Positions 184 to 27,285 of a DNA stretch of 64,000 nt are shown one piece after another (the stretch's first letter is position 1; each line of letters begins with the position of its first letter). A model generated the notes under the pieces. That model had not been told where the DNA came from, made no database searches, and was given only the letters and a program-made list of their open reading frames with translations. The stretch covers positions 1 through 64,000 of the forward strand of contig PNKV01000016.1 of the NCBI GenBank assembly GCA_013822685.1, written 5' to 3'. Position numbers and translations under genes: made by a program. The DNA is from Leptothrix sp. (in: b-proteobacteria). GTDB lineage: Bacteria > Pseudomonadota > Gammaproteobacteria > Burkholderiales > Burkholderiaceae_C.

Positions 184-2193
184 TCACACCGCCAGTTCAA
201 CCACTGCATAAGCATCGGATGTCTCGCCATGGTCAGCGCCACCGTCATCGCCAGGCGACTTCGACGAGGCACCCGTGCGCAAGCACATGGGCAACCAGCC
301 AGCACCGGCCATCGCGTGCTCGGCCCCGCTCACGGCGGCGTCCTTCCTGAGCGCAGCCAGGGGCGCGGCGGCATTGATGTCCACCGCCTCGGTCACCACC
401 TCCAGGAGGCGCCCCTTGGACACATGGTTCAGGTACGAAGCGCCACTGGCTGTCCACCAACGGCGCATGTCCAGGCCCAGCGCCAGCGCCAGGGCATCCG
501 TCCTTTGGGTTGAGGGCTCCACACCGTGGATGCCCGTGACCGTTGAGGCAACGGCAAAGGTCAGCAGTTGCAGCACCGTGGCCTGGTCTTGCGCCAGCAA
601 CCAGGGGAACATGGCATCCAGGTCTTGCGGGAGCTTGTCGGCCCAGGCCCGGCGCTCGGCATCCATCCGCAGCCACGCCGGACTGGTTTCGATGTCATCG
701 GCGGCGGCTCGCAGATCAGACTGGCTGTCCGTGGCCGTGATGGCCAGGACGGGGTCCTGCTGGTGACAGCGGTAGTCGTGGTTCAGGAACAGCTTTTGCG
801 CCAGTTGGGCCGTGATCGCCACCAGCGCCACATCCGGGCGGGCGATCAATTCGGCCTGCACGGCAGCCACCCGGTGAGCAGTCAGGCGGCGCATCAGCTT
901 GTCGGAGTGAACGGGGCGGGTCTTGGGTGATGGCAGCGACACCATGCCCCCTTGCACCCCGCCCTCGCCTGCTTGCCGTGCCGCTTGCGCCATGTCGCTG
1001 CGGTCATCGGGGCGGATCAGGCCGCGCTTGACTGTCGGCGTGCCGTTCTGGTCCACATGCACCACACAGCCCGCCTGCTTCATCAATTCGACAGGCCATG
1101 TGCTCAGGTCGGCCTCGATGGCCTTGCCCTGCACCTGCAGTGCCGCGACCTCACGCTCCAGCTCATCGGCTTGATCTTCATCGCCTTCATCCAAGGCATC
1201 CATCTGATCCTGCAAAGCGGCCATCTTTGCTTGCAGCGCATCCAGACTGGCTGCTTCCTGCTCGGTGGGGGCACGCTGGGTCTTGTGAAGCTCACCATGG
1301 CTCAGGTAGTCGTCACGGACCCAACGCGCCTGCACGTCCACCCACTTCCAACCTTCGGCGGCCACCTGCCTGGCCTTCTTGCGCAGCTTGTCCGTCGCGA
1401 GTTGATGCAGCAGGGGCACATTCAGCAGGTAGGCCTTCTTGTCATCGTCGCTGAACAGGTCGCGCCGCAGGGCACCACCGGCCTTCTCGTAGGCCTTGAG
1501 CGTCACGTACTTGGCCACCGGGTCACGGTCGGACTCGACTTCGTCCTGGGTCAGCAACTGGCGCAGGCATTCAGGGCGGCGGTTCCAGGGCTGCAAGCCC
1601 GCCCAGGCTTGCTCCTGCTTGTCGTGGTCATCGACCAAGGCCAGCGCCATCAGGCAATCCAGGCCGATCTCATCTGCCCGAAACTGCGCCATCAGCTTGG
1701 GGGACACGCTGGCCAGCTTCATCCGGCGTTTGACCACCAGGGGCGTGACGCCAAAGGCTGCGGCCACGTCCTCCACGGCTTTGCCCTCACCCAGCAATTT
1801 GGCAAAGGCCACGTACTCGTCAGCCGGGTGCATGGGCACATGAAAAACGTTCTCGGCCAAGCTGGCCAGCAGCGCCTTGTCGGCGGGCACGATCAGCACG
1901 GGCACCGGGTAGTTGTCAGGGATCTCGCCGCTGCTCGCCAGCAGACTCAAGGATTCCAGGCGACGGCCTCCGGCGCACACGTCGAACTGGCCCTGCACAC
2001 CTTTGACGACGATCAGGTTCTGCAACACGCCACTGTCCTTGATGGAGGAAGCCAACTCGGCAATGCTCAGTTTTGAAGTGCTGCCGCCCGGGCGCACCTG
2101 GTAGTCCACCGACAACACCAGCTTGTTCAAGGGCACCGTGGTGCGAGGGGATGCCGCGATCACGGCATCGATTTCTGCTTTGGTGAATTTCAT
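184..2193 (-). CDS. ParB/Srx-family partition-like protein
   Basis: About 669 residues. The N-terminal third is a ParB/Sulfiredoxin fold: a GGRR motif near residues 75-78 (the nucleotide/DNA-binding box of ParB N-domains), a second ParB box beginning ENVFH near 114, then a helix-turn-helix-like stretch around 140-165. The remaining 450 residues include a Glu/Asp-rich coiled segment (around 330-370) and a C-terminal region I do not recognise. It is much longer than chromosomal ParB (about 300) and has no ParA neighbour, which fits the large ParB-like proteins of plasmids and integrative elements. The ATG at 2193 is preferred over an upstream in-frame start because GGAG lies 7 bases before it. 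It is divergent from the helicase at 2497. A role in element maintenance is inferred. Confidence 0.8.
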   Translation of the reverse strand: MKFTKAEIDAVIAASPRTTVPLNKLVLSVDYQVRPGGSTSKLSIAELASSIKDSGVLQNLIVVKGVQGQFDVCAGGRRLESLSLLASSGEIPDNYPVPVLIVPADKALLASLAENVFHVPMHPADEYVAFAKLLGEGKAVEDVAAAFGVTPLVVKRRMKLASVSPKLMAQFRADEIGLDCLMALALVDDHDKQEQAWAGLQPWNRRPECLRQLLTQDEVESDRDPVAKYVTLKAYEKAGGALRRDLFSDDDKKAYLLNVPLLHQLATDKLRKKARQVAAEGWKWVDVQARWVRDDYLSHGELHKTQRAPTEQEAASLDALQAKMAALQDQMDALDEGDEDQADELEREVAALQVQGKAIEADLSTWPVELMKQAGCVVHVDQNGTPTVKRGLIRPDDRSDMAQAARQAGEGGVQGGMVSLPSPKTRPVHSDKLMRRLTAHRVAAVQAELIARPDVALVAITAQLAQKLFLNHDYRCHQQDPVLAITATDSQSDLRAAADDIETSPAWLRMDAERRAWADKLPQDLDAMFPWLLAQDQATVLQLLTFAVASTVTGIHGVEPSTQRTDALALALGLDMRRWWTASGASYLNHVSKGRLLEVVTEAVDINAAAPLAALRKDAAVSGAEHAMAGAGWLPMCLRTGASSKSPGDDGGADHGETSDAYAVVELAV

Positions 2194-2217
2194 GAGGGCT
2201 CCTGCACGGTTGAGGGG

Positions 2218-2232
2218 CAGGCGATGCGCCTG
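2218..2232. promoter_or_regulatory. Inverted repeat upstream of the ParB-like gene
   Basis: CAGGCG and CGCCTG are separated by three bases, centred about 32 bases upstream of the ParB-like start. The position would suit an autoregulatory operator or an mRNA hairpin in the leader. Nothing else confirms it. Confidence 0.25.
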
Positions 2233-2496
2233 TCCATGCATTCAGAATCTCATCCGGCGCGCTGAATTCAAGTCCGCACACGGCAAGCAAAAAAGCCATC
2301 GCCCAGGTCTTGAACAGACCCGCCAGAAACCCTTTCCCCATCGATCCACAGACCTGCGTTGGTCACGATCAGGTGACGAAGCGCGGTACCATTTCAACTA
2401 CTCCGGTAGGGCTGATGATTCCTGCCAAACCATTCACCCCTGATCGGTCAGAACACGCAGTCAGTACGCGCCGATACATCCTGACGAGGTCCATCG

Positions 2497-6407: not shown

Positions 6408-8021
6408 GTGAGCCGCCAGATGCGCAAGATCGCTAGTTCCTGGCAAAACGCAAAACCAGAACGTATGTCAACAACAAAAGCCGCCATTCCGGTGATTGAT
6501 TTGTTCGCCGGGCCTGGTGGGCTTGGCGAGGGCTTCTCGTCATTGCTTGACGACAAAGGAAATCGTCGCTTCGAGGTCAAGGTCTCCATCGAGAAAGACC
6601 CCATCGCGCACAAGACACTGTCTCTGCGTGCGCTCGTTCGGCACTTCAAGAAAGACAAGATTCCCGACTGCTACTACGACTACGTTCAGGGGAAGATCAG
6701 TCGCGAAGAACTCTTCAACCATCCTTCAGTGCCAGAGGCTGCGCGCCTTGGCGCGCAAGAGGCCAAGTGCGCTGAGCTTGGCGTCACGCCCCACAAAGAG
6801 ATCGACTCATGGATCAAGGATGCCTTGGGCAAGGCCGAGCAGTGGGTGTTGATCGGTGGCCCTCCGTGTCAGGCCTACTCGATGGCAGGACGATCACGTC
6901 TGCGGCCCAAAGATCCGGAGAGCTTCGAAAAGGACAAGCGCCACTTCCTTTACACGGAATACTTGCGGATCATCAAGGAGTTTGGTCCGTCTGTTTTCGT
7001 GATGGAGAACGTCAAGGGCATGCTGACTTCGCAACACGGAGGTTCTCCCATCTTCGATCGAATCCTGTATGACCTGCGTTCACCAGGAAACGGTCACGAA
7101 TACCGCATACGGTCTCTGGTGGTTGAAGGCGAAGATCTGGATCCCCACGACTACGTGATCGAGTCCGAAAGCTATGGTTTGCCGCAATCCAGGCACCGCG
7201 TGATCCTGTTTGGAATTCGCTCGGATCTTGCGGGACAGGCTGGCCCATTGCTGGGCCAAACCGAAAGGTTTTTGCTGAAAAAGCGCAAGGGAAAGGTCGT
7301 GGTCAGATCTGCGCTGAAAGGACTTCCTCCACTGCGGAGCAGACTGTCCAAAGAACCGGACAGCCAGGAAGCATGGCTAGCCGCCGTCAAGCAGGCGCCT
7401 CACGCCCTGAAAGGATGGCGCTTGCCCATTCGCAGCACGATCGAAACGGAAATGGGTGCTGCCTGGAAGAAGGCTCAAAGATATGATTCGTCTGGCGGCC
7501 GCTATCTCGAGAAAGAAATCATCTTTTCAGGTGCGCTTTCCGAAGAGTTGAAGTCCTGGTATCACGACCCAAAACTGGGGGGCGTTCTCCAGCACGAGAC
7601 ACGCAGCCACATGAGATCGGACCTCCATCGCTATCTGTTTGCTTCGTGTTTTGCCAAGCTCCAAAAACACGCCCCTCGACTCCCCCAGTTCCCTCCTCGC
7701 CTGCTGCCCGCTCATGTCAACATGACAGCTGAGGCGGTTCCATTTCTCGACAGATTCAGAGTCCAGCTGGCAGATGAGCCTTCGACAACGGTTGTTTCGC
7801 ACATTGCCAAGGACGGGCACTATTACATTCACTACGATCCGTCTCAGTGCAGAAGCTGGACCGTTCGTGAAGCTGCGCGTCTTCAAACCTTCCCGGACAA
7901 CTACTTCTTCGAAGGCAATCGAACTCAGCAATATTGGCAGGTAGGCAATGCTGTGCCGCCATTTCTGGCGAAACAAATTGCAGAAGTCGTCCTGGACTTC
8001 ATGGAGTTGTCTGAAGGCTGA
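6408..8021 (+). CDS. DNA (cytosine-5-)-methyltransferase
   Basis: 537 residues with the m5C methyltransferase motif order. Motif I is DLFAGPGG (31-38, AdoMet binding), motif IV GGPPCQ with catalytic Cys154, motif VI ENV (200-202), motif VIII beginning YGLPQSRHR, then a long target-recognition region and the C-terminal QVGNAVPP motif. It would transfer a methyl group from AdoMet to C5 of cytosine in a site set by the recognition region; the site cannot be predicted. GTG at 6408 has a GAAGG about 12 bases upstream; ATG at 6465, just before motif I, is an equally reasonable start. The 3' end overlaps the convergent vsr gene by 23 bases. It is the modification partner expected for the nuclease operon on the opposite strand. 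Confidence 0.95.
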   Translation: MSRQMRKIASSWQNAKPERMSTTKAAIPVIDLFAGPGGLGEGFSSLLDDKGNRRFEVKVSIEKDPIAHKTLSLRALVRHFKKDKIPDCYYDYVQGKISREELFNHPSVPEAARLGAQEAKCAELGVTPHKEIDSWIKDALGKAEQWVLIGGPPCQAYSMAGRSRLRPKDPESFEKDKRHFLYTEYLRIIKEFGPSVFVMENVKGMLTSQHGGSPIFDRILYDLRSPGNGHEYRIRSLVVEGEDLDPHDYVIESESYGLPQSRHRVILFGIRSDLAGQAGPLLGQTERFLLKKRKGKVVVRSALKGLPPLRSRLSKEPDSQEAWLAAVKQAPHALKGWRLPIRSTIETEMGAAWKKAQRYDSSGGRYLEKEIIFSGALSEELKSWYHDPKLGGVLQHETRSHMRSDLHRYLFASCFAKLQKHAPRLPQFPPRLLPAHVNMTAEAVPFLDRFRVQLADEPSTTVVSHIAKDGHYYIHYDPSQCRSWTVREAARLQTFPDNYFFEGNRTQQYWQVGNAVPPFLAKQIAEVVLDFMELSEG

Positions 8022-8457
8022 TCTCGCCATGAAGCGCTGTGCCTTCAATCCATTCCAGCAGCCTTCCAGACAGGGCTTCACGAGATGCAGTGGCACGCGT
8101 GGCACATTCCCAAACGACAAGCACGCGCCAGCCCAGCAATCCAAGCGATTCGATCGCATGCCGATCTCGCAAGACGTTCGCAGAGAGTTTCTCTTCCCAG
8201 AAATCAGCCCGTGTGCCTGGCAGCTTGGCGTATTTGCATCCCAGATGCTGATGCCAAAAGCAACCATGAACAAAGACGGCGATGTGACGCCCTGGCAAGA
8301 CCACGTCAGGATGACCTGGCAGATCCTTTCGGTGAAGGCGGAAGCGATACCCCAAAGCAAAGAGCGCTTTGCGGACCACCAGTTCGGGCTTCGTGTTCGC
8401 GCCACGAATGCCCGACATCATGCGGCTTCGCACTGTTGGCGAGACGATGTCAGCCAT
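7999..8457 (-). CDS. vsr: Very short patch repair (Vsr) mismatch endonuclease
   Basis: 152 residues, normal Vsr length. It has the family core: an SRMMSGIRG start segment, LPGHPDVV with the catalytic Asp, FVHGCFWH with the conserved His residues, FWEEKL, NVLRDR, and GWRVLVVWEC holding a zinc-binding Cys. Classical Vsr nicks 5' of the T in T:G mismatches made by deamination of 5-methylcytosine, so pairing with the adjacent methyltransferase makes sense. In MutL/MORC-type restriction clusters Vsr-like enzymes may instead act as effector nucleases. It starts 51 bases after the AIPR gene on the same strand and is probably the last gene of that operon. Confidence 0.95.
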   Translation of the reverse strand: MADIVSPTVRSRMMSGIRGANTKPELVVRKALFALGYRFRLHRKDLPGHPDVVLPGRHIAVFVHGCFWHQHLGCKYAKLPGTRADFWEEKLSANVLRDRHAIESLGLLGWRVLVVWECATRATASREALSGRLLEWIEGTALHGEISLQTTP

Positions 8458-8508
8458 TCACGCTCCTGAATGATGGCGGCGGTCGCGTAGCCAGCCATGC
8501 AACGCGAC

Positions 8509-10284
8509 TCAGCCCTGCCGGATTTCCGGAATGTTCGCTGCGGGGCTCGAATAGTTTGCGCCCATCACGGCATCCTTGCATTCAGGCCGCTTTGCCCATT
8601 CCGAGACCATCTTCCCGCCGGAGGACGAATGAAGCACATCGTTGACTTCCTTGGCCCACACCGCGATTTGCGCGAGCAATTCGGGCGAAACCGCTTGCTT
8701 GGCCCAGATCCGGTCAAGGTCAATGCGGTCACCAAGCTTCTCGGCAAGGAGTGACACCGTGTACGCAGTAACGTTCGCCTGGAATGCCGGGAACATCGGT
8801 CGCAAACGCTTTTGCGCATCTCGGTAAATCTTGGTCTTGGCAATCATGGCTTTGAAATCGACGACCGTGGGCAGCGGCGCATCCTGGCCATCCACAGGGG
8901 TAAGCCCAGCCATGAACTTGTCGAAATTCTTTTGCGAGCCAAGACTCACGATGTCCGGCTTCCTGTCCCAGGCTGTGATGTATTTGGCCAAGTCGGTCTT
9001 GGTGATGCGTCTCGCCGTTGGGATGGCGTCCTTCAAGGCCTTGAGCTTCGAGGGCGTGGTTCCCTCACGAACCAGAAGCGTGTTGTAGCTTCCGGCGGCA
9101 CGCTCATAGAACCATTGACTGACACCATCAGGGCAATAGACAGAACGTGAGAGCTTCTCAATCTCGACATGGAACGGCTTGTTGGCTGACAGGTCAGACT
9201 GCCTTACGGCGTTTTGGCTGTTGGCGAATCGCGAGATATCAGAAACGAGAGCCTCCTCCTTCGCCGAATCCTGGGCTCGCATGACGATGATCTTGGCTGG
9301 CACGCGGACGCGACTCAGATCGATATCCGGGTATTTCTTCTTCGTGAAGTAAATCGAGGCAGTCGTCTGTCCGCCGTTGACGATTTGCAGGCCCTTCAAC
9401 CATGCGATGCCGGCCGATCCTTCGCCTGGTTTGCCCAGGCGCATTTCATCGGCAACGATCACGATGCCGTTGTTGTAGGCCATGAATCGCTCCGGAGCCG
9501 AGCGCAGCGTGTTCTGAATACCTGCGTTGACCCCTTTGCCCTTGACGCTCAAAAATGAACGGACGTTCGCCTCCAGAAGACGGGCACCAAACTTCTCATA
9601 CAGGAGTCGGAGTGCTTCAGCAGGGATCGCAGTCAAGGCATAGTCGTAGTCGTCGTTTTCGCCAGGGACGAAGACACACGGCAATGGAACACCAGACACT
9701 TCGACGAAATCGACGATCAACTCATCGCGAGGTTTTCCTTCGGACCAATGTCGATGCAGTCGCTCGATGTCCATCACCTCAAGGCGAACAGCCTTGCCGC
9801 CGATGTCCCGCGTTTTGAAGCTCTTGGACTTGGCGACGCGATCCGTGATGACATAAACGCGAATTTGTTCCAGATCATCGTAGATGGCCTGCAACGTCTC
9901 GGCCAATGAGCGCACATCGCTGGATGGATCCAGCTTCGGGGCCATCTTGCCCTCGGCGCACAACTGAAGAAAGCGCAGGCATTGCTCTACGGCCTTCTGG
10001 GTCTCCGCGTCCGGAACCGGCGTTGGCACATCGACATTGGCGTAAAGGCTGACGAACAGGTCAAGCTGATCGCTTTCCTCTGAGAGTGAATAGCCACTCA
10101 AACGCAAGTTCGCGTTACCAACCTTGCCCTCGAAATGACATTCGACGGGCTCGAACGTCATGCCGATTTCCGACATGTGATCCATCACGATGGAGGAAAA
10201 AACCAGCTCCTCATATAGCGCACCATCTCGCATTTGCGATCGAACGGCAGCCTGGGTCTCGCTCAGGAATTCAGGCAAATTCAT
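8509..10284 (-). CDS. AIPR (abortive infection phage resistance) family protein
   Basis: 591 residues with hallmarks of the AIPR family: a YNNGIVI segment, an NGGQTT motif near residue 303, and the FANSQNAVRQSDLSAN block. The family was named for phage-abortive proteins and is frequent beside restriction-modification genes; its biochemical activity is poorly defined. The gene begins 2 bases after the DUF4420 gene, so translation is probably coupled. An acidic N-terminal region with regularly spaced hydrophobics may serve assembly. Function in anti-phage defence is inferred from family and operon. Confidence 0.9.
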   Translation of the reverse strand: MNLPEFLSETQAAVRSQMRDGALYEELVFSSIVMDHMSEIGMTFEPVECHFEGKVGNANLRLSGYSLSEESDQLDLFVSLYANVDVPTPVPDAETQKAVEQCLRFLQLCAEGKMAPKLDPSSDVRSLAETLQAIYDDLEQIRVYVITDRVAKSKSFKTRDIGGKAVRLEVMDIERLHRHWSEGKPRDELIVDFVEVSGVPLPCVFVPGENDDYDYALTAIPAEALRLLYEKFGARLLEANVRSFLSVKGKGVNAGIQNTLRSAPERFMAYNNGIVIVADEMRLGKPGEGSAGIAWLKGLQIVNGGQTTASIYFTKKKYPDIDLSRVRVPAKIIVMRAQDSAKEEALVSDISRFANSQNAVRQSDLSANKPFHVEIEKLSRSVYCPDGVSQWFYERAAGSYNTLLVREGTTPSKLKALKDAIPTARRITKTDLAKYITAWDRKPDIVSLGSQKNFDKFMAGLTPVDGQDAPLPTVVDFKAMIAKTKIYRDAQKRLRPMFPAFQANVTAYTVSLLAEKLGDRIDLDRIWAKQAVSPELLAQIAVWAKEVNDVLHSSSGGKMVSEWAKRPECKDAVMGANYSSPAANIPEIRQG

Positions 10285-10286
10285 TT

Positions 10287-11297
10287 TTAAATCGCTCCCA
10301 ATTTCTTCAGTGCGACCTCGATCCCGACATTTTCGCCAGGTGCTTTGTCGAGGTCAATTTCATACATGGCTCTCATGATGCCCGCAGGAACCCTGCCTGA
10401 GGTCAGACGAGGAAAGTCATTGGTGACTTCGATGACACGCGCTACAGCATGTTCAAACCGTCGTGGATAGCGATCTGCGTGCGAGTTGATGTAGCCCGCT
10501 GCGAGCAAGCGCTCGGTGAGCAGCCTCTCCGCTTCCGCCTCGCCCCTCATCGTCTGTCGCATCATCTCGACGAACCCAGGCAAGTTCTGACCGCTTGCGG
10601 TTTGCCGCAGCCTCACGCCTGCCACAAATAGCGGTTGGCGTATTGCATCGTCCAACTGCTCGAGCGAACCAATCCTGGCAGGAAATCCGGCTGATGAAAG
10701 CGTGGTCTTGACCTCCACGGCGCCAGTGCCCAGTTCGAAATCCTGGAGGCCATCGAGTGGACCAACCCACGCTTCGACGGCAATCTCAGCGGGGGCTCCC
10801 GCGTCGATGATGGCGCGCAGCAGCGTGAGTTCACCAATCAGACCGATCTCGGCCTCAGGGCTCAGGGCGTGGCTTCCCTTGCGCATGAACTCCTGCCAGG
10901 CCCCAACACGCCTGATGAAGACACGCACAAGCTTTCCCTCGTCGGCTCCGGTCGCCACCGCCTCGTCGAGAGCGCCGACAACGTCGCATGCCATGGCTGC
11001 AAAAAGCTCAGTGCTGCCAGCAATCTTGCGCGTCAGGGCGAGCCAGAGTCGGCCATTGCCCTCAGGGTCCGCTCGTTCCACCGAGAACCCCTGGCCCTCC
11101 GGAAGCTTGTCGGCCACAGACAGACGCACGGTCGGAAACCCCACCAGCACCGCCTCGGCATTGTCCGGTGAGCGCCGCCCAGCACGCACGTCCAGCGACC
11201 CCGCAGAAGGTAGCGCGATGGCCTGCCAGCCCGGCTCGGTGTCACTGCCCGTGAGCGACGACCATGCCATGAGGAATTCGTTACTCGGACGGGCCAT
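10287..11297 (-). CDS. PD-(D/E)XK motif nuclease, DUF4420 type
   Basis: 336 residues. The centre shows a restriction-nuclease core: GLIGEL with Glu155, LQDFELG with Asp186, and VEVKTT with Glu195 and Lys197, giving the D...ExK arrangement of PD-(D/E)XK enzymes. The N-terminal 130 residues are the DUF4420-specific part; the C-terminal 100 are basic and may bind DNA. The start overlaps the end of the Z1 gene by 17 bases. In this family of clusters it is the likely DNA-cleaving subunit. Substrate specificity cannot be read from sequence. Confidence 0.9.
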   Translation of the reverse strand: MARPSNEFLMAWSSLTGSDTEPGWQAIALPSAGSLDVRAGRRSPDNAEAVLVGFPTVRLSVADKLPEGQGFSVERADPEGNGRLWLALTRKIAGSTELFAAMACDVVGALDEAVATGADEGKLVRVFIRRVGAWQEFMRKGSHALSPEAEIGLIGELTLLRAIIDAGAPAEIAVEAWVGPLDGLQDFELGTGAVEVKTTLSSAGFPARIGSLEQLDDAIRQPLFVAGVRLRQTASGQNLPGFVEMMRQTMRGEAEAERLLTERLLAAGYINSHADRYPRRFEHAVARVIEVTNDFPRLTSGRVPAGIMRAMYEIDLDKAPGENVGIEVALKKLGAI

Positions 11298-14193
11298 ATT
11301 CCTGCATCCAATAGAGGAGGTTTACTTCGTATTCCACGCGCACGCCGTTCTCGCTCGACGGGAACGCGATGGCAAAGGCCATGATGGGCTTGTCCCAGCC
11401 AGGCACGATGAGGTTTTCAGGGAGCATCGCCTTGCCCTTGTAGTAGGGGGCGAGGGAGTAAAGCAGCAGTAGGCCGCGATCGGCCTCGCCTCCAAGCCTG
11501 TCGCGCGACTCGCGTATGCCTTTGCCGCTGGGGATGGTTGGCAGATTTACTCGGCCGCGAGCGGGCTCGGGCTTCCACGCCGCGCGAGTGCGGGCCAGCG
11601 CATCACGCCAAACATCGTCATCGAGATCGATGCCCTCGTCCTTGGGATCGGTCAGCACGCCGATGGCGAACATGGCGGGATCCTTGATGCCCGGTGGGTC
11701 GGGGTCTTCGGTCTTGCGTGTTTGGAAGGACTTGACTTCGAAGTTGCCAGGGAAGACATGTGTTGCGCCAACCCCTTCGCCACCGGTTAAAAGCGCAATG
11801 CTCCATTGCTTCAAATTGCCGATGTCGATCATCTTTGTGATGAAGTCCGCGAGCACTCCCGCCTTGGCACTGGTGGCATTGGGGTGGGTCGCATAGGCGC
11901 TCAAGAATGCAAGCACATTCGAAGCGTCCACATCTTTCCAAAGGCGAGCGCCTGACCAAGAGTCAGCATCGCCGTCGCGCGGATACTTAGGCCCCGGCAG
12001 GAAATTCATGCCGAGGGAGGCGATCAACGCGTCGGTCGCGGCGAGGTTCGCCCCTTGGACCCTGGCGTCCCGGTGGAAGAGAATGGTTTGGGGCCGCGTG
12101 CCGCTGTAAGTCAGGGACAGCGTCTGCGCGTTGCGCATCTTCAATGGCGAGGTGACGGTGAGAATCTCGTGCGACATGACCTTGAGGCCGTATTGCTCTG
12201 GCGTGAGCTTCGCCTTCGCCATGAAGTCGAATTCTTCGCGCAGCTCCTCGGAGGCGTCTGCGATGTGGCCGAACCACTTCACCAAGTCCGGCGAGGTGTA
12301 GAGGCGGCAGAGGTCCAGGTATCCCGGTCGGTAGCCGAACCAACGGCCCATCTGCATCAGCGTGTCATACATCTTTGTCGTGCGGACGAAGTAGCTCACG
12401 CAGAGGCCTTCAAGGGTCAGGCCCCGAGCGAGCTTGTCGCCGCCGACGGCGATGACCTTGAGGGCGGCGCCGGGGGTTGCGTAATCCAAGGCATCTTTGG
12501 CCGTTCCATTGATGGAGCGCACAACGATGTCATTGAGCACATCGGGCAGCTTCGCGACCACGTCATCCCACGAGGGCAGCTCAGGAGGGCGCTCAACGGC
12601 TGGCGAGAGCTCGGCGACTTTGTCGCGCGTGGGGATGAAGTCGTCGTCCCAGAGCTCGCGCAGTTGCGTGAGCAACTCGTCGGCGTCGCTGCCACGGGTG
12701 ATCTTCTGCCGCATGCGGCGCACAGTCTCCTCGACCTGCTCACGCACGTGGTCTTGCACCGCCACATATCTAGTGACGTGAATCAGCATGGAGCTGTGCT
12801 CGGCTCCCTGGCCTCTCAGTTCACGCGCCGCGCAGACTAGCACGAAGGAATGGATGGCCTTGCGCAGGGACAGCGGTATCGTCTCTTGGCCCTCATGGAC
12901 AGGAATATGCGTCTTCTTGTGCTTGGGTGGCATCCATCCCGCATCGGTCTCGGGATCGTAGTGGTCCAGGATGCTGCGCGACAGTGGGAGGGCTCCCACG
13001 CGGCCATCCTTGGTCAGCTTGCCAAACATGCGGGCGGGGCCGACGTAGTTCGACGGAGCGGCCAAATTGATGATGAAGGCCTTGGGGAAAAGGTCGGGAC
13101 CTTCCTTCGCCGTGGCGCCTTTGTGGTGAATGTAGATGTTGGCGAATGGAGTGGCCGTGTAGCCCACGTAGGCCTTGCGCGTGAAGGAGTGGAGCAGTTG
13201 GCGGATCAAGCTGTTGATGGTCTTGGGCTGGTGCTCCTCGTCGGGCGTCCCATCATCGTTGAACACCTGTTCACCGGTATCCACCGAAGCGTTGTCGGCC
13301 TCGTCGTCGATCATCAGCAGCGGCAGCTTGGTGACGAATTTCCAATCGGGCATCGAGCTTGGGGTATCGGCCACGCGCGCCTGAATCCACTTGAGGAGCT
13401 CTGTCAGCACGGTTTTTTGTTTCTTGACCACGAAGATCCAAGGGCGCTCTTCCGGGGAGATGCCATGGAAATGCTTGGCGATGGCTTTGCTGAAATCGCC
13501 GTTTTCCGCCCGTGTCGTTGCCGAGTTGGTTTTGAGGTCCTCGCCAAAACCGGCCACGCCGATGGCCGCGCCCGCGTCGCGGTCCGCCGTTGTTTCGTAG
13601 CCCAGGAAGCCTTCCTCAAGGCGCATCTGAGTCTGCGAGCGCAGGTTGTTGTGCATGCCCGCCAGCACGATGATGATCTTGTAGCCCGCGTCTGCGGCCT
13701 TGTTGATCAAGCCCGTGTAGTTGCTGGTCTTGCCGGACTGCACATGCCCGACGACGAGACCGCGACGATCCCAGGCATCTGTCCGCAGTGGGTCTTCCAG
13801 GAGCGCCAGGATGTCGTCGGTCGCCTCGTCAAGGCCATCAACGACCACATCTGACAGTTTGGACTCCTGGTAGTCGCGATATCGGCGCCAGTAATGCCAA
13901 TCCTTCTTGCGGGCGGCGGTGAGCCAATCGAAGTGCCCGGTGTTGTCCTTGAGGGTGGTGGCCTTGCCCATCCGGTGGCTGAATCGCTGGATCAGGGTGG
14001 CGACCGCCTTGGCCTCATCCAATGGGACTGGCGGATCGCTCGCGAACATCGCGGCGGCCAGCGTCACTTTTTCAGCGATGTAGGACGGCGTGATCTTTGA
14101 CGAGTCCTTCTCAGCCTTGACCAGCCGCTGCGCCGTAGCAATGACATCTTCAAGCAACTGCGCCTGCGCCGCTGCCTCTTCTGCTGCAATCAT
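11281..14193 (-). CDS. Z1-domain helicase-like ATPase
   Basis: 970 residues. Superfamily 2 motifs are visible: a Walker A-like GHVQSGKT at about 149-156, the Z1 Walker B IDDEADN at 295-301, the YTATPFAN motif at 345-352, a GGDKLARGLT segment near 590, and GRWFGYR near 617 where helicase motif VI would be. The Z1 domain is known almost only from restriction-modification-like clusters with MutL/MORC-type ATPases, where it is thought to move or remodel DNA. The ATG at 14193 overlaps the ATPase stop codon (ATGA), indicating translational coupling. The C-terminal 300 residues are unassigned and could contact the nuclease encoded next. Confidence 0.93.
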   Translation of the reverse strand: MIAAEEAAAQAQLLEDVIATAQRLVKAEKDSSKITPSYIAEKVTLAAAMFASDPPVPLDEAKAVATLIQRFSHRMGKATTLKDNTGHFDWLTAARKKDWHYWRRYRDYQESKLSDVVVDGLDEATDDILALLEDPLRTDAWDRRGLVVGHVQSGKTSNYTGLINKAADAGYKIIIVLAGMHNNLRSQTQMRLEEGFLGYETTADRDAGAAIGVAGFGEDLKTNSATTRAENGDFSKAIAKHFHGISPEERPWIFVVKKQKTVLTELLKWIQARVADTPSSMPDWKFVTKLPLLMIDDEADNASVDTGEQVFNDDGTPDEEHQPKTINSLIRQLLHSFTRKAYVGYTATPFANIYIHHKGATAKEGPDLFPKAFIINLAAPSNYVGPARMFGKLTKDGRVGALPLSRSILDHYDPETDAGWMPPKHKKTHIPVHEGQETIPLSLRKAIHSFVLVCAARELRGQGAEHSSMLIHVTRYVAVQDHVREQVEETVRRMRQKITRGSDADELLTQLRELWDDDFIPTRDKVAELSPAVERPPELPSWDDVVAKLPDVLNDIVVRSINGTAKDALDYATPGAALKVIAVGGDKLARGLTLEGLCVSYFVRTTKMYDTLMQMGRWFGYRPGYLDLCRLYTSPDLVKWFGHIADASEELREEFDFMAKAKLTPEQYGLKVMSHEILTVTSPLKMRNAQTLSLTYSGTRPQTILFHRDARVQGANLAATDALIASLGMNFLPGPKYPRDGDADSWSGARLWKDVDASNVLAFLSAYATHPNATSAKAGVLADFITKMIDIGNLKQWSIALLTGGEGVGATHVFPGNFEVKSFQTRKTEDPDPPGIKDPAMFAIGVLTDPKDEGIDLDDDVWRDALARTRAAWKPEPARGRVNLPTIPSGKGIRESRDRLGGEADRGLLLLYSLAPYYKGKAMLPENLIVPGWDKPIMAFAIAFPSSENGVRVEYEVNLLYWMQEYGPSE

Positions 14194-15683
14194 TTTTTAC
14201 TCCCTAGTTTTGCGATGAGCGCCGGATATTTCTGGAACGGTTCAGTGCGCGCCATCGACTTGCGCGCCTCCTCGAGGCTCAGGCCCTTGCGTTCGATCAG
14301 GTCATCGAAAAGCACCTGAGCGACCTCGACCACGGCCGCATTGGGTTCACCCTCGAACCCCGTTCGTGGCGTCTCCTTGTTTTCGGCTGTGTCCAGCCAG
14401 ATGCGCTGCACTGGAACGGTCTCCTCGATCACTCGAAGCATCGCCCTGACCAGTGGCTGCAACTCCCCGGCATTGGCAAGAACTGCAGCGACGGAAGCGT
14501 GCTTCTCGTCGATCCGATATCGCATGCCTGCCTTGACACGATCAACCCACCAAACCTGCTCGACGGGCGTATTGCCTTGCGCAGGGGTGGGCGTACCCCG
14601 ATAGGCGAACACGTGCCGAGCCCGTTCGCGGGTGTTCTCAGCCAGCGACATCAGCCATGGCCTTAGCGAAATGGGTGGGCGGGCAGTCGATTTCCTGACA
14701 TCGATCTTCCAGTCCGCATCGGCCGTATTGGGAATGTCCAGGCGAATGCGAGCCAAGCGGTGCGCCTCTTCCCTGTTCCATGCGCGCGAATTGCCAAGGC
14801 CAAGCCATCCGCCGGCAACCAGGAGTCGCTCGTTTCGATAGACATAGAAGCCTTGCTGAGCTGTCCAGCCTGCCGGGCCACCGCTTGCGTCGAACTCGGC
14901 GTTGGTCAATTTATCGCGATGAGGCAAGACATGGCACTGGACAGAGACTATTCCGTAGTCGGTCGGATGGTTGGTGGTCGGAGACGCCCACGGCTTCGCA
15001 GGATGGCCCATCATGAAAGGATCCCAAGGCTGGACAGGGCTGCCATTCAAAAGCAACTTGAGCTTGGCGCGTGGCCCCTGGAGCAGGCGATGGAACACCA
15101 TTGCCAAATGAGACTCAACGTTGTCTATGAGGTCGTGATAATCGTCAGATGTGTAGCCTGGGGTGACAACACGGTCCAGGGTTTCCCACAGGACCAGCGT
15201 TCCAGCCTTCTTGCCCTTGAGGCCCACGATGAACGGCTTCGATCCCGGTGCCGGGCCCTCGAACAGCAGCCAGCCGCTCTCCGGATTGGCCGCCAGTTCA
15301 TCAAGATCCCACCGGAGGCAACTTGCCGCGCCATCTTTGACACTGGCAACCGTGAGCCTGCGGCATTGGGAAAAGGAGGCCGTCTTGAGGCCCATCCCGA
15401 AGCGCCCGAGGTCGTGTGCCGAGCGTACGTCGAGAGGATTCTTGTCCCCAAGACGCATGGCGCTTTCGAGTTCGCCGTCATCCATGCCGCGTCCATCATC
15501 GAGAACCGCAATCCGACTGTTCAGACCGTCCCAGGTGAAATCGACGCGAACCTCTCCTGCGCCAGCTGAAATGCTGTTGTCGATGATGTCTGCCAGCGCT
15601 GCCGCCGTCGAGTAGCCGAGACCGCGCAGAGCTTCGAGCATTGCCATGGCGCGCGGTGGCGCATTGCGCGTTTTGGGTTTCAT
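14190..15683 (-). CDS. GHKL (MutL/MORC-like) ATPase
   Basis: 497 residues from the ATG at 15683, which overlaps the sigma-factor stop as ATGA; longer in-frame starts lie inside that gene. The N-terminal GHKL fold is clear: N-box ADIIDN (30-35), DDGRGM (about 61-66, Mg/ATP) and GRFGMGLKTA (about 91-100, ATP lid). The acidic residue opening the N-box is Asp rather than the usual Glu. A second domain with a WKIDVRKS segment matches the MutL/Hsp90 S5-like region with its conserved Lys. ATP-driven dimer closure is the usual mechanism of such proteins; here it may act as a DNA clamp that licenses the Z1 and nuclease subunits (inference). Confidence 0.9.
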   Translation of the reverse strand: MKPKTRNAPPRAMAMLEALRGLGYSTAAALADIIDNSISAGAGEVRVDFTWDGLNSRIAVLDDGRGMDDGELESAMRLGDKNPLDVRSAHDLGRFGMGLKTASFSQCRRLTVASVKDGAASCLRWDLDELAANPESGWLLFEGPAPGSKPFIVGLKGKKAGTLVLWETLDRVVTPGYTSDDYHDLIDNVESHLAMVFHRLLQGPRAKLKLLLNGSPVQPWDPFMMGHPAKPWASPTTNHPTDYGIVSVQCHVLPHRDKLTNAEFDASGGPAGWTAQQGFYVYRNERLLVAGGWLGLGNSRAWNREEAHRLARIRLDIPNTADADWKIDVRKSTARPPISLRPWLMSLAENTRERARHVFAYRGTPTPAQGNTPVEQVWWVDRVKAGMRYRIDEKHASVAAVLANAGELQPLVRAMLRVIEETVPVQRIWLDTAENKETPRTGFEGEPNAAVVEVAQVLFDDLIERKGLSLEEARKSMARTEPFQKYPALIAKLGSKK

Positions 15684-18310
15684 CTCCAATAGCCCTTTCC
15701 TGGCCAGAACTCGAATCCCATGGCGATCAGCTTTCGCACGAATCTGCGAGAGCGCATATCGGGTGCCTCGGTGAGATTGACCCATAACCTCCCGCTGCCG
15801 CCATCCCGGTCATCTTCGACGGCAATCCCGGCGACGAGGAGCTGATCGATCAGCTTGTCTAGCGCGGATTGTCGGGTGGGTTGCAGTTGACCAGGACCGG
15901 CATTCGCTGGCTTCGATTGCTCGGGCGGGGACGAAGCGTCTACCTCAGTGCCCACCGAAACAGTCGACGGGTTGCCATCCGACTCGTCATCGTCGAATTC
16001 GTTGGACGCCACCACACCGTGATCGCGTTTTGAAAGCGGATCGCTGCTGAACTCGCGTCGCAGCCGGTCAATTCGGCCAGGATGCTTAAGATGGCGGATG
16101 GCTGCAGCCTCAAGTTGTCGGATGCGCTCTCTCGTCACGTTGAGTCGCGAGCCGATCTCTTCCAGAGTCATCGAATCCGGCACGCCGATGCCGAAACGCA
16201 AGCGCAAGATGCGCTCGTCTTTCGACTTGAGCGTCCCCAAAAGCCGATCAACGGAATTGATCAATTGCAGATCGGACACGATATCCATGGGGTCGCGGGC
16301 AATGAACTCATCCCGGGCGCCCACTGCGATTCGCGCATCCACATCCGGCTCATCATCAATTGGCAAAGGCTCTTGCGCTAAACGGTTGAGCCCAGCGACC
16401 TTGTGAGCAGGCATGTCCACGCGCGCTGCAAGCTCATCAATCGTGGGCGCCCGCCCGGCACTCATCTCGAATGCATGTCCGGCCTGGGCAATGCGTTGAA
16501 CCTTCTCATAGACATGGACTGGCAAGCGAATGGTCTTGCTTTTGTCGGCGAGATGGCGGCCGACCTGCTGACGGATCCACCAGGTTGCATAGGTGGAAAA
16601 CTTGAAGCCCCTGCGCCAATCGTATCGATCGACAGCCTTGATGAGTCCGATGTTTCCCTCCTGGACCAGATCGTCCAAGAGCAGCCCACTGAACAGATAT
16701 TTTTTTGCGATGGAAAAGACAAGCTTCAAATTGGAGACGGTCATCCTGTCCCGTGACCGCCGATAGCTACTCATCGCTTGCGCGAAAGCAAGAGCCGGTT
16801 GCTGCTCGCCAGAAATACCAGCGTCTGCCAACTCCAACAGAAAACCACGGGTCAGACCAAGTGATCCGATCGCACCGCGGCAGGCTCTCCATTCAGGAGA
16901 GTGTTGAGATGAGCTGACGGCGAGGACCGACAGTTGCTCCGCCTGCGCAAAGAACTCCGACGACTCGTCAATGAACTCATTGGCGTCGGACTGTGCGCCG
17001 TGCTCGTCCTCCTCCTTGAGGTCTTCGGATAGAAGGACTGGCTCGGCACCGAATTTCTCGTCTGAATTCGGGTCGATATCGTGCGGCTCGACGCGCTGCC
17101 CAACCGATATCCAACGAAGCGGCTTTGCACCCGACATGACCATCCGCACGCTGTCCAGCACAGCAGCGATGCCAGATGGCCATGACGCCAGCGAATCAAG
17201 TGCCCTCTCTACACCTTGCTCCATGGCCTGCCCAAGGGCGACCTCTGCGTCGCCCGTAAGAAGAGGCTCGCGTTGATACTCGCGTTGATAGATGCGCATC
17301 GGCTCATTGCGCCGCGCCGCCAGATCATCCATGAACTCCAGCGTATCCGCGACAGCCACTTCTTCGTCTGAATTCTCAACAGGAGAGACAAAGACCTCAA
17401 AATTTTCGTGGGCAGACGCGTATTCAAAGCGTTCATCAGTTTCCGCACCCAGGTCATTGATCACCATGCGCAGAAGGGCCCCAGCTTCTTCGCTGGGCAC
17501 CCCATCTCCGTCGAACGACAGGTCCTCAATCAACGAATCCGGCACACTGCCTTCTCGAATTGCCCGAAGCAACACAAGGCGAAGTTGCTCGCGAACGTCC
17601 ACGTCTTCCGGGCGAGGAAGTGGAGAGGCCCGCTCCGGCAAGTAAGCATCAAAATCGTCCCAGTCGATGGATGTGTCGATGGGTTGATGCCTGGAAATGG
17701 CTCGTTGAACGTCAAAGGCAGCCGCTGAAAGCGTTGGATCGCTTTCGGGCGGCGGCTGGTCATCTTCGGCCTCCCATCCGGTCAAATCGAAGGCAGCACC
17801 ACCTTCGTCCAGGTCAAATGCCCATTCGATCGCGGGCGATGACACATCGGCGACGTCCCGTACCGAGCCCGAGTGATTCAGATTGGGAGGCTGTGCGACA
17901 TCGGAATCAAGACGAGAAGCGGATGGCTCGTTGCCCGCCTCAACCGAGCGTTCGCCGAGCAGGGTCGTGATGAACCCGCCAAGATCGACCCCATCATTGG
18001 CGAGTTCCGCAGGCGATGAGGCGGCTTCAATGACCGCGACCACTTCATACGCTCCAGCGGCCCTTGCAATATCGAGGGCGGTTTTCCCGGAAGGATCGAG
18101 CAGGGCGGCATCTGCGCCGCCATGGACAAGAAGCCTGCAAACGGCAGCTTTGTTGCGGGCGGCCGACAGCATGAGCGGCGTCAGGCCTTTGTCGTCGCGA
18201 GCATTGAGGTCGTCGCCTCGGTCGATATGAACCTGGACTGCGCTCTCGACCCCTGCCACGACAGCCATTCTGAGGAATCGGTTCAAAGATGCAACGTCGT
18301 GAACAGCCAT
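15680..18310 (-). CDS. Ankyrin-repeat sigma-70 factor, first gene of the defence operon
   Basis: 876 residues from ATG 18310 (879 from a GTG at 18319; neither start has a strong ribosome site). Ankyrin repeats fill residues 1-105 (GLTPLMLSA, GKTALDIA). An acidic linker follows to about 240. Next come segments resembling sigma region 1.1 (about 245-330) and region 1.2 (MRIYQRE to LLTGDAEVALG, about 340-370), region 2 (NLKLVFSIAKKYL to FSTYATWWIRQQ, about 530-585), region 3, and region 4 with the helix-turn-helix VTRERIRQLE (about 728-737). A further 115-residue tail ends in GFEFWPGKGYWR. The organisation is that of a group 1 primary sigma factor, not an ECF sigma. Its stop overlaps the ATPase start. 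It may drive its own operon or redirect polymerase during infection; both are inference. Confidence 0.92.
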   Translation of the reverse strand: MAVHDVASLNRFLRMAVVAGVESAVQVHIDRGDDLNARDDKGLTPLMLSAARNKAAVCRLLVHGGADAALLDPSGKTALDIARAAGAYEVVAVIEAASSPAELANDGVDLGGFITTLLGERSVEAGNEPSASRLDSDVAQPPNLNHSGSVRDVADVSSPAIEWAFDLDEGGAAFDLTGWEAEDDQPPPESDPTLSAAAFDVQRAISRHQPIDTSIDWDDFDAYLPERASPLPRPEDVDVREQLRLVLLRAIREGSVPDSLIEDLSFDGDGVPSEEAGALLRMVINDLGAETDERFEYASAHENFEVFVSPVENSDEEVAVADTLEFMDDLAARRNEPMRIYQREYQREPLLTGDAEVALGQAMEQGVERALDSLASWPSGIAAVLDSVRMVMSGAKPLRWISVGQRVEPHDIDPNSDEKFGAEPVLLSEDLKEEDEHGAQSDANEFIDESSEFFAQAEQLSVLAVSSSQHSPEWRACRGAIGSLGLTRGFLLELADAGISGEQQPALAFAQAMSSYRRSRDRMTVSNLKLVFSIAKKYLFSGLLLDDLVQEGNIGLIKAVDRYDWRRGFKFSTYATWWIRQQVGRHLADKSKTIRLPVHVYEKVQRIAQAGHAFEMSAGRAPTIDELAARVDMPAHKVAGLNRLAQEPLPIDDEPDVDARIAVGARDEFIARDPMDIVSDLQLINSVDRLLGTLKSKDERILRLRFGIGVPDSMTLEEIGSRLNVTRERIRQLEAAAIRHLKHPGRIDRLRREFSSDPLSKRDHGVVASNEFDDDESDGNPSTVSVGTEVDASSPPEQSKPANAGPGQLQPTRQSALDKLIDQLLVAGIAVEDDRDGGSGRLWVNLTEAPDMRSRRFVRKLIAMGFEFWPGKGYWR

Positions 18311-18319
18311 ACCTGTCAC

Positions 18320-18795
18320 AGACTCGTTCTTTCACGAAACGCCACGAAGGCCACGTTTGGCAGCCAACTCGCTGGGCCAATGGTGGACTCTGCGTCTTGG
18401 ATCACTCCATTCCCCAAGAAAACGGGGACATGCAGCCACGCCACCTATATGCGAGCTCGATCACCCCGACTAGCGTGACAGGAAGACAAGTTCGGACACT
18501 GCCATTCCTTCGTTTCCCTGAAGCCATTTGGAATTTATGTAAATCTTGTTTCAGAGCATTCTACAGAGAGGTGGCGAGGTTTTCGCGTATGCGCCTCCTG
18601 CCAAGGATGGCCTGCAAAACCCATTTTCAGGTTCAAAACGGGAGGCTGCGCTGATCCGCCACAGCCAACTGCGCCAGTTCATGGCCGATTCGCCATGGCA
18701 TGAGCTGAAAGGCGACAAAGCCCCCTTGAGCACCGCCGCCCACCCTGGCCATACTTCGATGGCTACCTGTGGACATCGCGTTCACGAAGCCTTCA
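18320..18795. other. Upstream region of the sigma operon, no gene seen
   Basis: About 475 bases between the sigma-factor start and the first small plus-strand frame. An AT-rich tract at about 18530-18570 is the best place for the operon promoter, but no clean -35/-10 pair could be assigned. If the sigma factor is autoregulatory, its target sequence should lie here. Confidence 0.35.
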
Positions 18796-21399: not shown

Positions 21400-21595
21400 A
21401 GCACTGTGCCGCACGCAATCCCCCGGGTCGCCGGGCTGTTGGCGGTGGCATCGCCCGGCCAGCGCTTGAACACACCGGGCAGGCCGACCACACTGCGCCA
21501 TGCCTCCCGCATTCCATCGCGGAATGCCCTCCCGACCTAGCGTCGGCGTCGCAGTCGTCACCTGCCTCATCAACCGTGCTGGCCTCGCGTCAGCA

Positions 21596-21667
21596 CATCC
21601 CGAGCGGGAACCTCCTTCCCCTCGGGGTTGGACGTTCCCGCTTTTCCTTTTTGTGAAGGAGAAATCC
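21596..21667 (+). promoter_or_regulatory. Structured 5' leader of radC, radC-motif-like (copy C)
   Basis: CATCCC is followed by a hairpin (GGGAA 21606-21610, CCTCC loop, TTCCC 21616-21620), a second hairpin (CGGGG 21623-21627 with TTCCCG 21635-21640) and AAGGAG. The order, the loops starting with CC, and the shared CGTTCCC match copy A at 18989. Its place before radC fits the known radC RNA motif class. Confirmation needs a covariance-model search. Confidence 0.55.
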
Positions 21668-22249
21668 GTGAATGTCACCCACATGTCCAGTACCGAACTG
21701 GTCAGCGAACTGCTCGCTGCACCCCTTCGCCATGAATCCCCCCACGCGCCCTGTGCCTGCGACCCAGCAGCCGCTTACCGGGCCGTTGATCAGGATCTGC
21801 CCGAACTGGCCCACAAGCTCAGCGTCGCGCGTGAACTGCTGTTGCGTAACCTGCGCGCCAAGATGCTGGAGGGCCCCATCATGGCCTCGCCCAGGGCCGT
21901 GAAAGACTGGTTGTGCCTGTACTGCGCCGGATTGCAGCACGAGGTGTTCCTTGTGATGTACCTGGACTCGCAGCAGGTCCTGATCGAGGCCGAAGAGCTC
22001 TTTCGGGGCACGCTGACCCAGACTTCAGTCTACCCACGCGAAGTGGTCAAAGGCGCGCTAGCACGCAACGCAGCGGCCGTGCTGTTGGCACACAACCACC
22101 CGAGTGGCCAGGTAGACCCTAGCCGGGCAGACGAGCTCTTGACCCAGACGCTGAAATCCTCTTTGATACTGGTTGACGTGCGCGTGCTCGACCACTTCAT
22201 CGTGGGCGGTGACCGGGTCACGTCGTTTGCAGAAAGGGGCTTGCTGTGA
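21668..22249 (+). CDS. radC: RadC-like JAB-domain protein
   Basis: 193 residues from a GTG with AAGGAG 6 bases upstream; the in-frame extension further upstream overlaps the structured leader and is rejected. The C-terminal half is the JAB/MPN+ domain: AHNHPSG with the zinc-binding His pair and the downstream Asp in SRADELL, then [13 protein letters not shown] and the FAERGLL ending typical of RadC. The N-terminal helix-hairpin-helix part of chromosomal RadC is replaced by an unrelated 70-residue segment, as is common in mobile-element RadC proteins. The name implies DNA repair, but the activity of this branch is not established. Confidence 0.9.
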
Positions 22250-25768: not shown

Positions 25769-25808
25769 GGTTGGCTCCAGCAGATTGCTGGAACCAGTTT
25801 CCAACGTG

Positions 25809-26061: not shown

Positions 26062-27285
26062 TCACCAGGCCATGTCTGCCGCACTTTCGAATTGGTTTGT
26101 CAGATGATCAACGAGACTCTTCATTTCTGACTCCGAATTCATGGCCTGTACATAGGTACCGTCCGCCGCGTACGACAGGATACTCGGAAGGGGACTGAAG
26201 ATGTAATGCCGGGCCGGCGCCAACGCGCCTGCCCACAGGTGCTCAAGAAACGACTCGATCTCCAACATTGCCGCGGCTTCATCAAAGGCCACTCGGCCCG
26301 TCAGGCTGACGCGATGATCTCGGTCATTGGTCAGACGTACAGGAACGGCCCCGGCACCCGAGTGAAAGTCAAACGCCTGGCCTTCCTTGCCGAACGCTCC
26401 GTGCGCCACGAAGTTCCTGACCTGCGCGCGAAGCTCCAAGAGCTTGTCATAGTGCGCCTTGGTCTCCTTGTCCGAGATGTCCAGCGCGGACTTGAACTTT
26501 GCGATCCAGTTGTCTTCTGCAAGCTCCGCGACTTGGGTCCCAACCGTCAGCCTTCCCTGAAGTATCGCAAGGTGAATGAACGCGTGTTCAGTCCAGCTGA
26601 AAAATGCTTCAATGGCCGCTTGCGCATACCACTTCGCTTGCTTACAGACAGTCAACCAGGATGAGATGAGGGCGCCATTAACCTGGTCGATCGATTGACT
26701 TCGTTGGGATCTCGACTGGATGGCCAAAGCCTCACCTTCATCCACCTGCGCTTTGAACCGATCGCGAAAATAGATGTATCGGTCGAACAGCTCAGCGCTC
26801 TTGTTGAACACATTTAGCTCGGATGTCGAGATCGCTTGTTGCGCTCGCCATTGAAAATACGGCTCCGCAACAGCAATCGCCTTCTTGATCACCGCAGCGA
26901 TGGCGGCAGCATCCTCTTCTGCTTGTTCGCTTGGCTGGCCGCTCGTCCTTGCATTGGGATCCAAATTGGGCGCAAAGATGCCGAGCCCCATCTTTCTGTG
27001 CTCGATCCCGTACAGGCGCCCGCGAAATCGCACAGGGATGGTCCATGCAGTTTTTTCCCATTGACCAAGACTCGGAAACGCAAGCAAATCTATAAGAAGA
27101 AAGTAGACCAGGTAGTAGGGCGGAAGACTGCGGCCTGCATTCGTTCGCGCCGACAGCATCAATCCGCGCCCTTCTTCGGCAGACCGAGGGGCTCCCGCCG
27201 GCTCCAGCTCATGAAGTGCTGCTCGCGCTATTTCGCGCAGATGCTCTGGTATCGACGGTGCGGCGGCTGGCTTCCTGGATTTCAC
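26062..27285 (-). CDS. HEPN-motif protein, possible RNase effector
   Basis: 407 residues from a GTG with AGAAGGAAA upstream. The C-terminal half contains a helical bundle with FFSWTEHAFIHLAIL (229-243) and LRAQVRNFVAHGAFG, where Arg290, Asn291 and His295 make the RNxxxH (Rx4-6H) signature of HEPN ribonucleases. The N-terminal 200 residues, with a PPYYLVYFLLIDLLAFP hydrophobic segment (55-71), are unassigned. HEPN proteins cut RNA in toxin-antitoxin and abortive-infection systems. No antitoxin nucleotidyltransferase is next to it; its neighbour is the divergent Gabija-like pair. The defence role is inferred from motif and location. Confidence 0.65.
   Translation of the reverse strand: MKSRKPAAAPSIPEHLREIARAALHELEPAGAPRSAEEGRGLMLSARTNAGRSLPPYYLVYFLLIDLLAFPSLGQWEKTAWTIPVRFRGRLYGIEHRKMGLGIFAPNLDPNARTSGQPSEQAEEDAAAIAAVIKKAIAVAEPYFQWRAQQAISTSELNVFNKSAELFDRYIYFRDRFKAQVDEGEALAIQSRSQRSQSIDQVNGALISSWLTVCKQAKWYAQAAIEAFFSWTEHAFIHLAILQGRLTVGTQVAELAEDNWIAKFKSALDISDKETKAHYDKLLELRAQVRNFVAHGAFGKEGQAFDFHSGAGAVPVRLTNDRDHRVSLTGRVAFDEAAAMLEIESFLEHLWAGALAPARHYIFSPLPSILSYAADGTYVQAMNSESEMKSLVDHLTNQFESAADMAW

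Follow-up and report, generated by a model that had tools for sequence, protein, structure and literature searches.

A complete Mza locus in Leptothrix sp. and the sigma factor MzaA as its possible link to RNA polymerase

We analysed 64,000 nucleotides of a Leptothrix sp. genome (GenBank assembly GCA_013822685.1, contig PNKV01000016.1, positions 1 to 64,000; hereafter the window), in which a cluster of seven genes almost certainly includes a complete copy of the known anti-phage system Mza (mzaABCDE), whose original report is said to be that of Gao et al. 2020; protection against phage is reported for other members of the system and is predicted for this one. A first-pass annotation had described six minus-strand genes joined by ATGA, ATGA, a 17-base overlap, a 2-base gap and a 51-base gap, opposite a 5-methylcytosine (m5C) methyltransferase gene. 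We confirmed these junctions and the methyltransferase gene, which is convergent with the gene for the very-short-patch repair endonuclease Vsr. The PADLOC comparison proposed in that annotation matched five proteins to the MzaA to MzaE models in A-to-E order, with near full-length matches for MzaB to MzaE (Table 1), bearing out the call of a defence operon. The accompanying statement that no described system has this exact composition was wrong: the composition is that of Mza, and the available part of a 2022 paper (PMC9523054) prints both a 'validated mzaABCDE system' and 'mzaA (a sigma factor)'. With these model matches and that description the locus is rejected as a new system, and since the gene set is already known, the find itself is not new.

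The question that Mza raises is what a sigma factor does inside a restriction-like defence system, and a literature search found no paper testing MzaA function. Four contrasting features frame it: conserved promoter and polymerase contacts, a subunit that is overall the most variable of the five, RpoD-like cores in two lineages, and natural variants without the sigma. Our leading reading, which we consider quite possible though somewhat short of an even chance, is that MzaA links the restriction machinery with RNA polymerase at promoters. Its sigma core would engage the host RNA polymerase, and MzaB to MzaE would be coupled through MzaA to the polymerase at promoters.

MzaA carries ankyrin repeats (residues 12-97), a tryptophan-rich (W-rich) stretch (about 176-235), sigma region 1.2 (340-371), sigma70 regions 2-4 (521-755, from Pfam and alignment to RpoD) and a C-terminal domain (819-879); 19 of 69 relatives end in a motif like that of the window protein. 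Region 1.1 is a feature of primary sigmas; MzaA residues 241-300 align with this region of E. coli RpoD inside a weak stretch (27.8 bits), which hints at a sigma of group 1 type, and the sequence from residue 274 on aligns with another RpoD, also weakly (30.1 bits). For the aligned sigma70 positions we assume the roles generally assigned to them, such as -35 recognition or clamp contact. The -35 helix residues R730, E731, R732, R734 and Q735 are invariant (69/69 each), W581 and R588 are likewise found in 69/69, Q584 in 68/69 and W580 in 56/69, and the clamp-contact positions D550, Q553, E554 and N556 are kept in 68, 69, 57 and 53 of the 69. With most polymerase and promoter contacts kept, MzaA looks, from its sequence, like a sigma that is able to work. 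An AlphaFold model built on an alignment of 50 of 70 sequences predicted three parts confidently (ankyrin, sigma and C-terminal) and had low-confidence segments in the intervening sequence (mean predicted local distance difference test score 78). Foldseek placed E. coli sigma70, as part of an RNA polymerase complex, first among its matches (E 2.3e-20); each of the 50 matches listed was a sigma chain from such a complex, with E. coli the source of almost all of them.

Three stretches of the PADLOC MzaA model are matched by the window protein: the sigma stretch, the ankyrin part at model positions 13-104 and the piece that follows it at 109-195, so the last two are not new. That model spans 683 positions and the window MzaA 879 residues; the C-terminal domain lies beyond the last matched residue, 753. 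When residues 1-300 were searched against 369 genomes of the class, matches at E <= 1e-8 were found in 20, and all except the window's own fell within approximately residues 3-110, the ankyrin part; the W-rich stretch showed no sign outside Mza in these genomes at this threshold.

To place the sigma gene among relatives we used the best 80 of 585 relatives from an MzaC scan of species genomes, and evaluated the 74 loci in which 1500 bases or more precede mzaB (L037, L040, L049, L065, L080 and L090 fall short), with gene starts taken as the first possible codon. The gene immediately upstream of mzaB is a sigma gene in 69 of the 74, a figure that speaks for close relatives only, because only the best 80 were kept. 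The mzaB start codon overlaps the mzaA stop codon in the window (ATGA), and a 4-base overlap of the two genes occurs in 33 of the 69 loci. The exceptions are L042, L045, L054, L056 and L057, from Pseudomonas and Stutzerimonas records. All five components, their order and the leading position of a sigma-type MzaA are the same in Mza and in the window, which differs in adding a methyltransferase and Vsr, as many relatives do: methyltransferase homologues were found in 57 and Vsr in 63 of the 80 loci, or in 35 and 40 of the 43 loci longer than 22 kb.

MzaC is present in 8 of the 369 genomes, the window's own included. Among the seven other clusters, one close relative (L148) has the sigma gene and six distant ones do not, so the sigma is typical of one clade within a wider family. 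The first-pass view of the sigma gene as a cluster member therefore holds for 69 of the 74 evaluable close relatives and does not extend to the six distant clusters, four of which have B, C, D and E. These six may be of the same kind as the distant systems described in the available part of PMC9523054, which are about 20% identical to mzaBCDE and in which mzaA is 'present only in a few'. Viral contigs yielded 2 relatives of MzaB, and 40 plasmid records contained an MzaC relative, all below 60% identity.

In the 67 loci that carry the full set of five genes, pairwise identity averages 0.30 for MzaA, 0.60 for MzaB, 0.57 for MzaC, 0.42 for MzaD and 0.58 for MzaE, making MzaA as a whole the most variable Mza subunit. 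Within MzaA the sigma core averages 0.41 and the ankyrin part 0.39. MzaA distances follow those of MzaC (Mantel 0.77, 0 of 999 permutations), and the fit is similar for MzaB, MzaD and MzaE (0.80, 0.80 and 0.70). Identity of the sigma core to the RpoD of the window genome ranges from 31 to 76% over 70 proteins, a comparison that leaves out the own RpoD of L016 and L030. The upper end is L016, whose core is 76% identical to RpoD; L016 and L079 are 83% identical in MzaC, 47% in the MzaA N-terminus and only 43% in the sigma core. The pattern is the same for L024 and L027 (core 72% identical to RpoD) compared with L035. An RpoD-like core has probably taken over in at least two lineages, L016 and L024/L027, the alternative being slow change in these lineages. 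In a tree built from 70 MzaA cores together with 26 sequences of RpoD type, without the partial RpoD L118, L016 falls among the RpoDs with support of only 0.24 and L024/L027 fall outside the RpoD group, so that core replacement is probable but not proven. As a separate observation, the genomes behind L048, L020 and L017 (L119, L120 and L121; Duganella, Janthinobacterium and Duganella) have a second RpoD-like gene that is 81% identical to the RpoD core of the window's host, compared with 89% for the main one.

All five sigma-less loci encode a homologous substitute protein of 328-424 amino acids, placed ahead of Vsr and the methyltransferase (Table 1). Taken as a family, the substitutes match residues 176-289 of MzaA, which comprise the W-rich stretch and the beginning of the region 1.1-like sequence (hhalign probability 76.5%, E 2.2e-5). 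Control comparisons of the family with MzaB, MzaC, MzaD, MzaE and reversed MzaA reached a probability of at most 0.6, and with 20 MzaA alignments whose columns had been shuffled no more than 4.3 (E 0.0094), which strengthens the leading reading. In L065, which is not among the 74, a contig-truncated open reading frame (ORF) overlaps the mzaB start and contains the W-rich stretch (E 4e-5), but there is no sigma. A weak match of L078:15517-16260 to the W-rich hidden Markov model (E 0.013) was put aside as likely chance. In all three substitutes tested (L057, L042 and L056) the C-terminus matches the last part of a ZorC model (E 5e-13 to 2e-12). That of L057 also gave a weak match in PDB to the archaeal transcription factor E (E 0.023).

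The coupling of MzaB to MzaE to polymerase through MzaA is argued for in three steps. That the sigma is a subunit is suggested by its position directly 5' of mzaB, the frequent overlap and the co-divergence with MzaC; that it may be able to work is suggested by the kept contact positions and the Foldseek match; that it is more than a regulator is suggested by its variability, the RpoD-like cores in two lineages and the W-rich stretch shared by the substitute family. Several results weigh against this. In no case does the substitute gene adjoin mzaB on the 5' side, the Vsr and methyltransferase genes standing in between, and singly only two of the five substitutes (L054, 9.9e-6; L057, 0.0024) match the W-rich model at E <= 1. 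The sigma core alone is no more variable than MzaD, and the low MzaA average is also owed to the middle part (0.25). The equivalent of sigma70 T440 varies, being T in only 29 of 69 proteins and G in the window. The Foldseek matches listed have query-normalised template modelling scores of 0.25-0.32 and large root-mean-square deviations; the domains of MzaA thus match and their arrangement does not. The six distant clusters indicate that the machine can exist without a sigma, fast change of MzaA also fits a guard, and the upstream element described below fits autoregulation. A fuller proposal, which we regard as rather unlikely in its entirety, is that Mza performs transcription-guided restriction: a renegade housekeeping-type sigma on host RNA polymerase would find the promoters of incoming DNA and load the MORC-type ATPase, translocase and nuclease there. 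The sigma core would be an exchangeable module for targeting, one that RpoD has supplied anew on two or more occasions and that a protein with another C-terminal domain has replaced in some Pseudomonas-type systems.

Alternatively, MzaA may do no more than regulate: as a sigma specific to this operon it would drive mza transcription, and its ankyrin part would act as a switch triggered by infection. We find this doubtful but worth keeping in view. Evidence for it comes from the DNA upstream of mzaA, for which we compared 66 regions, the window's own and those of 65 among the 69 mzaA-bearing loci. The heptamer GTAGAAT occurs in 11 of them, compared with 0.33 expected from the same loci and 0 on the opposite strand, and TGTAGAAT occurs in 9. 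Ten of the 11 belong to the window's 14-member MzaA clade, 8 of these ten having the element 155-179 bases before mzaA; the members lacking it are L018, L021, L028 and L059, of which L028 has TGTACAAT instead. The rarity of TGTAGAAT, with 3 copies in the 4.2-Mb genome, also supports an operon-specific regulator, and the T440 equivalent is G in 7 of 10 motif-bearing MzaA proteins compared with 5 of 60 others, which fits a regulator although common descent could explain it. Nothing indicated that TGTAGAAT commonly serves as a housekeeping -10 in this genome: GTAGAAT was found in 0 of 172 upstream regions from about 460 kb of it, and a wider pattern of the -10-like element had no match in the genome check. 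Against a regulator, the -35 helix is invariant, yet GTAGAAT has no conserved -35 element next to it. Outside the window's clade no common upstream motif was found, and sigma70-consensus scores upstream of mzaA were no better than those of shuffles made as Markov samples (mean z 0.10; z > 2 in 2 of 66), so that a sigma70-consensus promoter was rejected as a general feature of the operon. One copy of TGTAGAAT lies approximately 50 bases before an isocitrate-lyase-like ORF (assigned by eye), another upstream of mzaA and the third opposite a monooxygenase-like ORF; from the first of these an ordinary sigma may read the element, and specificity of MzaA for it is not established.

The same housekeeping-like core, with invariant DNA contacts and strong divergence elsewhere, would suit a guard or decoy role, in which MzaA mimics sigma70, becomes the target of phage proteins that act as anti-sigmas or hijack the polymerase, and on being attacked releases or activates MzaB to MzaE. 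RpoD-like cores in two lineages are what would be expected of a bait that must resemble its target, and the weak region 1.1-like stretch points the same way; no phage trigger is known, however, and sigma-less loci exist, and we consider a guard unlikely. That the sigma gene stands next to a restriction cluster only by coincidence, which the first-pass annotation would have concluded had many homologous clusters lacked it, is very improbable. Its absence from 5 of the 74 close loci and from the six distant clusters is set against its place directly 5' of mzaB in all the others of the 74, often with start and stop codons overlapping, its co-divergence with MzaC and its inclusion in the named Mza model; within the close clade we reject an incidental association.

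Other systems share parts of this arrangement. The combination of MORC/MutL-type ATPase, helicase, restriction-fold nuclease and methylase recognised in the first-pass annotation was already present in Iyer et al. 2008 (PMC2292703), where, in the available part, MORC/paraMORC operons comprise a GHKL ATPase, a superfamily II helicase with the motif DThhQXuRhFG and a restriction-endonuclease-fold gene, with cytosine methylases and Vsr. The window has this theme in common, its MzaC signature being DTLMQMGRWFG; the available main text names no sigma. With Zorya only protein tails are shared: the C-terminal 126 residues of MzaA match the end of one ZorC model (E 8.6e-8), the sigma-less substitutes match the end of another, and the two kinds of tail differ by eye. 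Most ZorC matches in other genomes end near position 500, so ZorC does not always carry this tail, and neither ZorA nor ZorB was among the PADLOC matches listed for nine plus four window proteins.

Table 1. Features of the window and, in the last row, the substitute proteins of sigma-less relatives.
Feature	Position	Strand	Evidence or remark
mzaA, ankyrin + sigma70	15680..18319	minus	Start GTG 18319 or ATG 18310; Pfam, RpoD alignment; PADLOC MzaA 255.1 bits
mzaB, GHKL (MutL/MORC-like) ATPase	14190..15683	minus	HATPase_c_3 1.1e-29; PADLOC MzaB 662.9 bits
mzaC	11281..14193	minus	PADLOC MzaC 1010.4 bits
mzaD, PD-(D/E)XK nuclease	10287..11297	minus	DUF4420 4.2e-72; PADLOC MzaD 193.2 bits
mzaE, AIPR protein	8509..10284	minus	AIPR 5e-92, AIPR_N 1.5e-47; PADLOC MzaE 714.7 bits
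Vsr very-short-patch repair endonuclease	7999..8457	minus	Vsr 3e-29; PADLOC 117.5 bits
m5C DNA methyltransferase	6408..8021	plus	DNA_methylase 2.3e-45; convergent with Vsr
TGTAGAAT, candidate -10-like element of mza operon	18558..18565	minus	About 245 bases before annotated mzaA start
ParB_N-matching protein	184-2241		
Large helicase	2497-5928		Matches MkoC, 206.8 bits
RadC	21500-22249		
SbcC/SMC-like ATPase	23231-25804		Pfam scores below cut-off
407-aa protein	26062-27285	minus	Between Mza and Gabija
GajA (Gabija)	27756-29702	plus	PADLOC 889.9 bits
GajB (Gabija)	29699-31360	plus	PADLOC 737.5 bits
guaA	31492-33087	minus	Named by eye
Substitute protein	L054:5092-6366; L057:5367-6353; L056:5305-6354; L045:5225-6397; L042:222-1280		

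In MzaB the N-box N70 and G1 D96 are kept in 77 of 80 relatives, the other 3 being gapped. The PD-(D/E)XK motif (E, D, ExK) of MzaD is present in a residue alignment of 79 relatives, with E156, D186, E195 and K197 each found in 78 and one row gapped. The methyltransferase has FAGPGG, PPCQ, ENV, QSRHR and VGNAV. A model of MzaE, made with an alignment of 31 of 80 sequences, gave no match at E <= 0.001 by Foldseek alone; by VIA-align, residues 1-183 appear to resemble PD-(D/E)XK folds and about 210-360 resemble ParB domains. MzaE D75 is found in 79/79 relatives, and no ExK was seen beside it. Directly after mzaE, four loci of Duganella, Massilia and a Burkholderiaceae record encode a second, longer AIPR-like protein (L048:15631-18336, L061:15517-18315, L064:15458-18289 and L072:14472-17123; phmmer 322-343 bits to MzaE).

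The window starts at the contig end, and positions 1-31400, between that end and guaA, form an island-like stretch. The 407-residue protein between Mza and Gabija had no Pfam match at E <= 0.1 and no PADLOC match at E <= 0.001. Beyond mzaA, a complete Gabija pair (27756-31360, plus) adjoins guaA, a gene that is an insertion hotspot.
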